Part shown: piece after piece, positions 59,320 to 62,947 of the stretch | Layout: the number at the start of each line of letters is the position of its first letter | Position numbering within the stretch: the first letter of the stretch is position 1 | NCBI RefSeq assembly: GCF_000940805.1 | Contig: NZ_CP007142.1 | Span: forward strand, 4,316,593-4,380,592 | Direction of reading: 5' to 3' | DNA length: 64,000 nucleotides | Source of the DNA: Gynuella sunshinyii YC6258 | GTDB lineage: Bacteria; Pseudomonadota; Gammaproteobacteria; Pseudomonadales; Natronospirillaceae | Notes under the pieces: generated by a model | Databases searched by the model: none | Seen by the model: only the letters and a program-made list of their open reading frames with translations | What the model was told of the DNA's origin: nothing | Translations under genes and position numbers: made by a program

Positions 59320-60153
59320 CTAAGAGGTTTTTTCTGCTTCGGTGGAGGATACAGCATCCTCCGGCTTATCGGGATTGTCACTATCAGCTATTTCAACAAT
59401 TTCAAAGTCTTCACCTTTCAACTCGGGCATATCAATTTTTTCGAAGTTTTTATCAAGCTTACCAAGCGTGCTGCACATGTTATCAAGGCGGGCATCCTGA
59501 GCATGCATGTGATCCAGCATCGCCTTAATCGCATGAGCAATCGGGTCCGGCATTTCGGAAACTCCATAGGCATCAAACCCAAGAGCTTTGGCAATCTGAG
59601 CGCGCTTGGCGTCGGCCTGCTCCTGCTCGGGTAATGGCGTTGGTGCTTTGATAATCCGGCCTGGAACACCCACAACTGTAGCACCGGCAGGAACGGGTTT
59701 GGTCACCACCGCGTTGGAGCCGATGCGGGCACCTTCGCCAACAGTGAAAGGCCCCAGAATTTTGGCTCCGGCACCAACAATCACATTGTTTTCCAGAGTC
59801 GGATGGCGCTTTCCGGGCTCCAGGCTGGTACCACCAAGAGTTACCCCCTGGTAAATGGTGACATCATCACCAATTTCCGCAGTGCCACCAATAACCACAC
59901 CCATGCCATGATCAATAAAAAAGCGGCGACCGATTTTCGCACCAGGATGAATTTCAATACCGGTAAGCCAACGGGCAAACGTGGAAAGCATTCGCGCCAG
60001 CCACTTGAAATCCCAACACCAGAGTTTGTGACTCAGCCGATGAAACAGAACTGCATGCAGGCCTGGATAAGTGGTTATGACCTCGAAAAAATTCCTGGCA
60101 GCTGGATCACGATGAAAGACGCTGCTTACATCTTCTTTGAGTCTGGAAAACAT
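59320..60153 (-). CDS. cysE: Serine O-acetyltransferase
   Basis: Makes O-acetylserine for cysteine synthesis. A 277-aa EpsC-type CysE with a short N-terminal helical part (about 1-65) and a left-handed beta-helix of hexapeptide repeats: [80 protein letters not shown]. The catalytic His is in the [10 protein letters not shown] tract. The long C-terminal tail (about 180-277), rich in acidic residues, exceeds the usual length and ends without the -I residue that docks into CysK. It lies 9 nt after trmJ in the known trmJ-cysE order. Confidence 0.93.
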
Positions 60154-60162
60154 AATGGTTCC

Positions 60163-60921
60163 TTATTTTGGCTTGAGCTTCCCGGAGGCCGCTTTGATAG
60201 TCTGCTTCAAGATTCCACGCAAAATATTCACTTCCGTTGTATCCGGTTCCGCCCGCAGGTACAACCTGCGCAAGCGATTCATCAGAAGCTTGGGATTATT
60301 GGGATCAAGGTATTCGATATCAACCAGCGCCTGCTCAAGATGACTGAAGAAACCTTCCATCTGGGTGTGACTGGCAGGAGGTTCTTCCCTGACGGCAGAC
60401 CACTGATAGTCAACCTCACCGGCCAGACACGCCATGCGCAGTTCATAACTCAGCACCTGTACAGCTGATGCTACATTCAGAGAGCTATAGTCAGGGTTGG
60501 CCGGTATGTGCAGATGAGCATGACACTGAGCCAGCTCATCATTGGTCAACCCGCTGCGCTCACGGCCAAAAACCAAAGCCACGGTCTGTTGCTGAGATGC
60601 CGCCGCAAGCGCTTTCTGGGCGGCCTGACGTGGATTCAGTAACGGCCATGGAAAACTACGGCTGCGGGCACTGGCTCCCAGTACCAGAGCGCAGTCACTG
60701 ACCGCTTCGGCCAGATTGGGAGCGGTACGACACTGCTGTAACAAATCATCAGCCCCGGAAGCGCGCGCCATGGAAACATCAGAAACCACGTCACACTGCG
60801 GATTGGCTAATACCAAATCGTTCAATCCCATGGTTTTCATGGCTCTGCAGGCAGACCCGATATTAGCACTCAGAGAGGTTTCAACCAGAACGATTCGAAT
60901 ATGAGCTAAAGCGTGCAACAT
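60163..60921 (-). CDS. trmJ: tRNA (cytidine/uridine-2'-O-)-methyltransferase TrmJ
   Basis: A 252-aa SPOUT methyltransferase modifying position 32 of tRNA. Visible are RIVLVETSLSANIGSACRAM, MGLNDLVLANP, ALVLGASARSR and the trefoil-knot tract VALVFGRERSGLTNDELAQC, then LHIPANPDYSSLNVASAVQV. The C-terminal helical extension is as in E. coli TrmJ. GGGGGA lies before the ATG. It starts the leftward trmJ-cysE unit, divergent from suhB, as in Pseudomonas. Confidence 0.94.
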   Translation of the reverse strand: MLHALAHIRIVLVETSLSANIGSACRAMKTMGLNDLVLANPQCDVVSDVSMARASGADDLLQQCRTAPNLAEAVSDCALVLGASARSRSFPWPLLNPRQAAQKALAAASQQQTVALVFGRERSGLTNDELAQCHAHLHIPANPDYSSLNVASAVQVLSYELRMACLAGEVDYQWSAVREEPPASHTQMEGFFSHLEQALVDIEYLDPNNPKLLMNRLRRLYLRAEPDTTEVNILRGILKQTIKAASGKLKPK

Positions 60922-61060: not shown

Positions 61061-61819
61061 ATGCAACCGACTTTAACCATCGCGATGCGTGCAGCCCGTG
61101 CTGCCGCCGAAAAAATGAAATACACCTATCAGCAGACGCCTGCGCTGCTGGATGAAGGATACAGTCTGGAGAAAATTTTTACTGACGCAATGGAAGGTGC
61201 TGCCGCCAGAGTTGTCAAAAGTCTTTGGGCGGCCCATCCCACTCACAACATCATTTTCAAACAGCTTGGCGAGCACCCTGCCAAAAACCCGGAACACAAC
61301 CATAAATGGTATGTGAACCTGTTGGATGGGGATCTGAATTTTCAAACCGGCTACCCTGCCGCGGCGATCTGTGTCGCCCACGCCTTCAGAGACAAGTTCG
61401 AGCAGGTTGCCATCATTAATATTTTCAATGACGAAGAGTTTGGTTGTGTACGCGGCCGGGGCATGACCCGCAACGAACAGCGCGTTCGTGTCACCAGTGT
61501 CCGTCGTCTGGATGGTATCAGCTCTGGTGTGCATGGCTTTGACACTGACCCATCCTGGGTTGCCTGCTGTGGCACTCACAACATCAACCAGCGGATTATT
61601 GGCTCCGGCCTGTTAACTCTCAGTTATTTCTGCAGCGGCTTTACTGATGCCTGCGTGGTAAATGGTATGAGTGAACACGATATGTCGGTTGCTGCGTTAT
61701 TACTGCAGGAGTCAGGAGCGATTGCCGGGGACCGTAAAGGCAAACCACTGTTTGCCAACAGCGCCGAAATCGTTGCCGCCAACCCCAAACTGTTCAAGGT
61801 ACTGCTACAGGCCCTGTAA
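61061..61819 (+). CDS. SuhB-like inositol monophosphatase homologue lacking catalytic residues
   Basis: A 252-aa homologue of SuhB by position (beside trmJ) and by N-terminal MQPTLTIAMRAARAAAEKM, VRGRGMTRN and LSYFCSGFTDACVV. Yet metal sites are changed. The family EES motif is replaced by KQLG (residues 67-70), DPxDGT by NLLDGD (86-91; the first Asp lost, second Asp89 kept), while the last Asp207 remains in EHDMSVAALLLQESG. It is probably a catalytically inactive or altered protein. E. coli SuhB acts in rRNA antitermination independent of catalysis, so such a role is possible. The ribosome site is weak. Divergent from trmJ. Confidence 0.88.
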   Translation: MQPTLTIAMRAARAAAEKMKYTYQQTPALLDEGYSLEKIFTDAMEGAAARVVKSLWAAHPTHNIIFKQLGEHPAKNPEHNHKWYVNLLDGDLNFQTGYPAAAICVAHAFRDKFEQVAIINIFNDEEFGCVRGRGMTRNEQRVRVTSVRRLDGISSGVHGFDTDPSWVACCGTHNINQRIIGSGLLTLSYFCSGFTDACVVNGMSEHDMSVAALLLQESGAIAGDRKGKPLFANSAEIVAANPKLFKVLLQAL

Positions 61820-61855: not shown

Positions 61856-62947
61856 ATGGCTCGATCACTGCAGATACTCGCCGGTAAACGTGCATTCAAA
61901 CATTTGAAGGAACACGGTCTTCAGGCTCAGGATGTCAAAATAATTCTCGGAGCTTCTGGTGGACCCAAATGGTTTGTTTTATCGCGGCTCGATCAATATC
62001 TCAATTCTGAGTTCCTGAGTCAGGCCGATCAATCCATTCAATTGGTGGGATCATCAATCGGTGCCTGGAGAATGGCCTGCTATGCCGAAAGTGATCCCCA
62101 ATCCGCAATACAACGACTGGAACAGGGTTATCTGCATCAACGCTACCCGCGAAAGGCCTCAGGAGCAGTGGTTTCCGCAAATGCGCAAACCATGCTGGAT
62201 GAGTTTCTACCTGACAGTGAAATCAATTTCGTGCTGAAAAATACCAATCGGCATTTGAACATTGTGACCACACGCTGCCATGGCTGGCTGGAACAAGAAT
62301 ATAAACCCAAACAACTGGCCGGGTTTATGGGCAGCGCTGTCGCCAACGCTGTTTCCAGAAAAATGCTTAATCGTTTTTTTGAACGAGTAGTGTTCTCGCA
62401 ACACATGAGTGACTCACCTTACCGAACACTAAACGGCGTACCGGGTCGCTTAAGCAGCCTGAGTCAGCAGAATCTCAAGACTGCACTATTGGCTTCAGGG
62501 TCTATCCCTGTTGTCCTGGAAGGTGTTCAGGATATCAGCGGCGCCCCAAGTGGTACTTACCGGGACGGCGGACTGGTTGATTATCACTTTGATCTCCCCT
62601 TCAGCGTGGAAAATGGCATTATCCTTTATCCGCATTTTGCTCCGTTATTGAAGCCAGGCTGGTTTGACAAGTCTCTGCGCTGGCGTGGCGTCAATGCCCG
62701 AAACTATCAGGATGTCGTACTACTGGCACCGACCCCGGAATTTATCCAGCACTTACCATATGGAAAAATTCCAGACAGGGGCGATTTCAAAAAGATACCC
62801 GACAACGTTCGGGAACAGTACTGGAAAGATGCCATCAAACAGGGACAGCGACTGGCTGATGATCTGCACGAACTGCTGAATTCAGACAGGCTGATCGTTG
62901 AAATGAAAGAGCTGATCCCGAGCAGGCTGCGATCACTTAAACGCTGA
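61856..62947 (+). CDS. Patatin-like phospholipase
   Basis: A 363-aa cytoplasmic (no signal peptide) patatin-fold acylhydrolase. The oxyanion loop is GASGGPKW near residue 34, the nucleophile elbow GSSIGAWR (GxSxG) near residue 66, and the catalytic Asp is in RDGGLVDYHF (DGG motif) near residue 240. It probably deacylates phospholipids or other acyl esters. The ORF begins with ATG 36 nt after the suhB-like gene, so the two are likely one unit. AGG lies upstream. It belongs to the family of unassigned bacterial patatins rather than RssA. Confidence 0.85.
   Translation: MARSLQILAGKRAFKHLKEHGLQAQDVKIILGASGGPKWFVLSRLDQYLNSEFLSQADQSIQLVGSSIGAWRMACYAESDPQSAIQRLEQGYLHQRYPRKASGAVVSANAQTMLDEFLPDSEINFVLKNTNRHLNIVTTRCHGWLEQEYKPKQLAGFMGSAVANAVSRKMLNRFFERVVFSQHMSDSPYRTLNGVPGRLSSLSQQNLKTALLASGSIPVVLEGVQDISGAPSGTYRDGGLVDYHFDLPFSVENGIILYPHFAPLLKPGWFDKSLRWRGVNARNYQDVVLLAPTPEFIQHLPYGKIPDRGDFKKIPDNVREQYWKDAIKQGQRLADDLHELLNSDRLIVEMKELIPSRLRSLKR

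Follow-up and report, generated by a model that had tools for sequence, protein, structure and literature searches.

It is puzzling that a transcription antitermination factor should share its fold and active site with inositol phosphatases. SuhB of Escherichia coli and Pseudomonas is both a Nus factor and an inositol-1-monophosphatase, and for the E. coli protein phosphatase activity has been measured. The activity is dispensable for the cellular role of E. coli SuhB, and phosphatase-defective mutants lose the enzyme activity and retain the cellular function (PMC4807359, PMC6614801); indeed, there is no obvious need for it in E. coli (PMC4807359). The stretch of DNA considered here (the window), 64,000 nucleotides from Gynuella sunshinyii YC6258, belongs to a genome represented by one contig of 6.476 Mb and contains a suhB gene in which most of the catalytic site has been replaced (Table 1). 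This locus raises the question of what such a gene is kept for. Based on the comparisons described below, the protein is quite probably a pseudoenzyme that has been kept for a role as Nus factor in rRNA antitermination.

Table 1. Features at the suhB locus of the window, with positions counted from its first letter.
Feature	Position	Strand	Basis
cysE (serine acetyltransferase-like), suhB neighbourhood	59320..60153	-	reading of sequence
trmJ (SpoU methylase family), divergent neighbour of suhB, marks the suhB place	60163..60921	-	neighbourhood
Degenerate suhB, uninterrupted frame of 252 aa	61061..61819	+	ORF, PF00459, NCBIfam, model, PDB matches
Pro3 codon, SuhB-specific (54/54 degenerate, 33/33 canonical, 3/25 paralogues)	61067..61069	+	alignment
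K67-Q-L-G70, replacing the metal-ligand motif E67-E-S-G	61259..61270	+	alignment
N86-L-L-D-G-D91, replacing D84-P-L-D-G-T89; D89 (E. coli D87) is the sole catalytic residue kept here	61316..61333	+	alignment
R141-V-R143 (E. coli R139, R141), SuhB-specific	61481..61489	+	alignment
H206-D207, replacing W211-D212	61676..61681	+	alignment
Lys246, equivalent to K251 in the NusA-AR2 binding site of E. coli SuhB	61796..61798	+	alignment

The preliminary description of this DNA placed the gene at the expected genomic position of suhB, and this is borne out by the neighbourhood: cysE and trmJ lie on the minus strand, suhB is divergent from trmJ on the plus strand, and a patatin-like gene and secF follow, the latter (named by reading of the sequence) approximately 1.4 kb downstream of suhB. 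The Inositol_P domain PF00459 spans the whole protein (6e-18, Pfam). The top NCBIfam model is that of E. coli-type SuhB, PRK10757, with 93.4 bits, which is below the equivalog cut-off of 332, and the closest solved structures by sequence are those of P. aeruginosa and E. coli SuhB. The AlphaFold model of the protein has a pLDDT of 94, and its best eleven PDB matches in Foldseek are all SuhB; the PDB matches include 6ib8 (SuhB-AR2) and chains of 6tqn (rrn antitermination complex). Phylogeny had been named as a check of membership in SuhB. In the gene tree the window protein groups with SuhB, across a SuhB/paralogue split that is weakly supported (49), and it is nested among canonical SuhBs with a support of 85-91. 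Judged by its place and its sequence, the open reading frame is a SuhB orthologue; a mis-assigned IMPase paralogue is ruled out by the synteny and by the SuhB-specific residues. The patatin-like gene (61856-62947, same strand) starts 36 bases past the suhB stop and has a Pfam match just under the cut-off. Promoter, terminator and repeat scans of the window suhB gave nothing above chance.

Residues are numbered below as in E. coli SuhB unless stated otherwise, and the window equivalents were taken from the alignment. It had been claimed that the EES motif has become KQLG, that DPxDGT has become NLLDGD and that only Asp89 and Asp207 are left of the family set. The alignment agrees on all of these points and adds the losses of D44 and W211. 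The changes comprise E67 to K67, E68 to Q68, D84 to N86, P85 to L87, T89 to D91, W211 to H206 and D44 to M44, while D87 (as D89) and D212 (as D207) are kept, so that two of the five metal-binding and catalytic residues E67, D84, D87, T89 and D212 remain. E. coli SuhB, the measured phosphatase, keeps E67, E68, D84, T89, W211, D44 and R184, all of which are replaced in the window protein. Chance or sequencing error can be excluded as the source of this loss, since the same kind of loss is found in 21 further species of the family. From the eroded site we infer that phosphatase activity is absent from the window SuhB.

A search for another intact IMPase-family gene in the genome, also suggested earlier, found three further PF00459 genes (L001-L003) with intact motifs. 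These CysQ, HisN and generic IMPase paralogues have the Inositol_P domain in common with the window SuhB. Unlike it, they keep the full active site, mostly do not have P3, R139 and R141, and in no case have K251. A second IMPase that made the loss possible is not a general explanation, as 7 of the 22 family genomes contain just one other PF00459 gene; the single one of these seven that was read (L289 of G002) has CysQ-like motifs.

The loss is not confined to the window. Degenerate SuhB was found in 22/22 genomes examined from its family, and those of their other PF00459 genes that were read cluster with the paralogues rather than with SuhB. When E. coli SuhB was used as a query against 293 genomes of the order, whole families lacked a strong match. 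In the representatives read, the trmJ-linked gene is degenerate in families f1, f6, f19, f26, f36, f37 and f38, and in part of the members of f14, f39 and f44; in total, ten families of the order have degenerate SuhB, i.e., that of the window and nine others. The split is sharp: canonical genes have 5/5 catalytic positions intact and the 54 degenerate ones 0-3/5, with just one position retained in 34 of the 54. Outside the order, almost all families sampled gave a strong SuhB match. There, a trmJ-linked SuhB-like gene (L301 of G321, family f67) is degenerate and keeps R139 and R141; L303 (G306, family f52) is likewise degenerate with both arginines kept, no trmJ being present in its stretch, and is probably a second degenerate SuhB outside the order. 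The active-site loss in L301 and L303 is separate from that in the order. The loss of catalytic residues noted for the window gene is real, and rather than being peculiar to this gene it extends through the whole family and recurs across the order. In the literature searched, no report of a catalytically degenerate SuhB was found. In the small genomes G034 and G075 (family f14, genus g23; loci L188 and L189) no SuhB-like gene was found beside trmJ, and their best PF00459 matches are paralogues without K251; suhB may be absent from these genomes. NusA of G034 keeps AR2.

The number of losses was considered on a tree built from the RpoB sequences of 55 genomes; its rooting is insecure. The canonical/degenerate label needs five changes on this tree, at least four of which are forced by well-supported branches, and shuffled labels need approximately 18. 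Families f39 and f44 each contain canonical and degenerate members, hence losses happened within families. For the fully degenerate families f1, f6, f19, f26, f36, f37 and f38, one shared loss and several both fit the RpoB tree. Change counts alone carry no direction; the direction is taken to be loss and not gain, as E. coli has the canonical state and so does almost every other lineage. SuhB active-site decay arose several times, the RpoB tree needing at least four separate changes. Two genomes of genus g85 in family f39 (G123 and G173; loci L272 and L273) have an RpoB of approximately 1472 aa, about 110 aa above nearly all other sampled genomes, and their RpoB lies on a very long branch; the SuhBs of this genus are among the most diverged.

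What was lost and what was kept could be separated by comparing 54 degenerate SuhBs, 33 canonical SuhBs and 25 PF00459 paralogues, of which 23 come from genomes of the window's family. All 25 paralogues and all 33 canonical SuhBs have E67, D84, D87, T89 and D212 intact; in the 54 degenerate SuhBs these residues are eroded. Ten sites that canonical SuhBs share with the paralogues have been lost from the degenerate set (D44, E67, E68, D84, P85, D87, T89, W211, D212 and A215), and these are essentially the active site. As genes were assigned to this set by their loss of some of the five catalytic residues, the absence of E67, D84, D87, T89 and D212 is partly by construction; the independent sites, outside the definition, are D44, E68, P85, W211 and A215. 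Such a pattern could also be left by an enzyme with a remodelled site, working with another metal, on another substrate or by one-metal chemistry. The window protein does retain the equivalents of D87 and D212, and family f37 keeps D87 and partly E67. The replacements, however, vary by lineage (E67 to R, L, V, T, K and others; T89 to E, I, L, Q, Y and others) and converge on no new motif, T89 survives in 1/54, and one or both of the remaining aspartates are lost in other family members. We consider a remodelled enzyme distinctly improbable, and the expectation that activity has been lost is supported by a comparison in which the site is eroded, and recurrently so.

The reverse is seen at P3, L9, A11, R139, R141 and K251, which canonical and degenerate SuhBs retain and few paralogues have; of these, P3, R139, R141 and K251 are near-invariant in the two SuhB groups. 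R139 is present in 53/54 degenerate SuhBs vs. 4/25 paralogues and R141 in 54/54 vs. 3/25. Position 251 is K or R in 52/54 degenerate SuhBs, and K is found there in 0/25 paralogues. When the 267 sites are ranked by conservation among the degenerate SuhBs, K251 is 18th, and E67, D84, D87, T89 and D212 rank 134-232. L254 is kept conservatively, mostly as L, V, I, F or M. The window SuhB has P3, A11, R139, R141, K251 and L254, and Met at position 9. No function for R139 and R141 was found in the literature consulted on SuhB.

A protein that has lost its enzyme function could simply be drifting towards a pseudogene. Degenerate SuhBs diverge fast, with an identity of 29-42% inside one family, and have long branches in the gene tree, as would be expected of a decaying gene. 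Nevertheless, the reading frame is open and full-length in every family member, dN/dS is 0.01-0.32 in close degenerate pairs with unsaturated dS (simple Nei-Gojobori count), the gene is divergent from trmJ in 54/54 degenerate genes sampled in the order, and P3, W81, R139, R141, E222 and G224 are near-invariant. Ongoing decay is thus highly improbable, and the reading of the window suhB as a pseudogene is ruled out by dN/dS, the open frames and the 21 relatives. By these substitution counts and frames, degenerate suhB is a maintained gene under purifying selection.

If the gene is maintained, the partners of a Nus factor should be considered. NusA is present in 22/22 family genomes. In those family members from which its C-terminus was extracted, the window genome included, it has AR1-AR2 and a C-terminal APWF/ASWF motif; conservation of AR2 is not proof of SuhB binding, since AR2 also binds alpha-CTD. 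In E. coli, the K251A+L254A replacement shifts NusA AR2 binding from 94 nM to 141 uM, i.e., makes it approximately 1500-fold weaker (PMC6614801), and both of these NusA-AR2 residues are present in the window SuhB as K and L. All four rrn leaders of the window genome have a boxA/boxC-like stretch, and one of them was aligned to the boxA/boxC region of E. coli rrnB (GATCTTTAAAAGTTAATCAGGCAATTCGTGTGGGCGCTGG vs. GCTCTTTAACAATTTATCAGACAATCTGTGTGGGCACTCG). The window SuhB resembles SuhB of E. coli and Pseudomonas in its fold, in the trmJ-divergent position of its gene and in P3, R139, R141 and K251; its genome likewise encodes NusA with AR2 and carries a boxA/boxC-like leader.

Recruitment of SuhB to a new, unrelated binding role, with the Nus role being carried out without it, would also conserve a gene of this kind. 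R184, found in 86% (weighted) of canonical SuhBs, is lost in all degenerate ones, several canonical-invariant residues are lost in the degenerate forms as well, and degenerate SuhB evolves faster than canonical. The loss of R184 may mean that some SuhB contacts have changed in the degenerate forms. Against a wholly new role, K251, P3, R139 and R141 persist across separate losses, and the window genome still has the rrn leader and NusA AR2; we regard such a role as unlikely. Retention for the Nus role is the reading we prefer. By analogy with E. coli, the window protein, with its IMPase fold kept and its metal and phosphate site lost, would bind NusA AR2 through the C-terminal helix carrying Lys246 (K251), bind the linker between boxA and boxC in the leader of the nascent rRNA and help the loading of NusB/NusE, and the result would be assembly of a complex for rRNA antitermination and rRNA folding. 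The Nus function is thus an inference from its E. coli counterpart. The earlier suggestion that selection may keep only the NusA/RNA role is supported, at the level of comparison, by the position in the gene tree, the trmJ synteny, the purifying selection and the retention of P3, R139, R141 and K251 while the active site was lost.

That the phosphatase activity is dispensable was already known from E. coli; what is added here is the repeated natural loss of the site with SuhB-specific residues kept. The phosphatase-defective forms of E. coli SuhB are laboratory mutants; in the degenerate SuhBs most of the site has disappeared in nature, and more than once. Despite this loss the gene persists, at its usual place and with a few SuhB-specific residues, and so the two roles appear to have been separated by evolution instead of mutagenesis. 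Repeated decay of the active site with the transcription-linked features kept suggests that SuhB is maintained in evolution for its part in transcription and not for its chemistry, and the pattern predicts which residues are important for the Nus role. Whether the same holds more widely seems to us evenly balanced: in much of the GTDB order Pseudomonadales and in a few outside lineages, SuhB may repeatedly have become a dedicated non-enzyme transcription factor, with P3, R139, R141 and K251 marking its Nus surface and the two arginines forming a contact undescribed in the literature consulted. In these bacteria, many genes that are likely to carry an inositol monophosphatase annotation probably do not encode enzymes.
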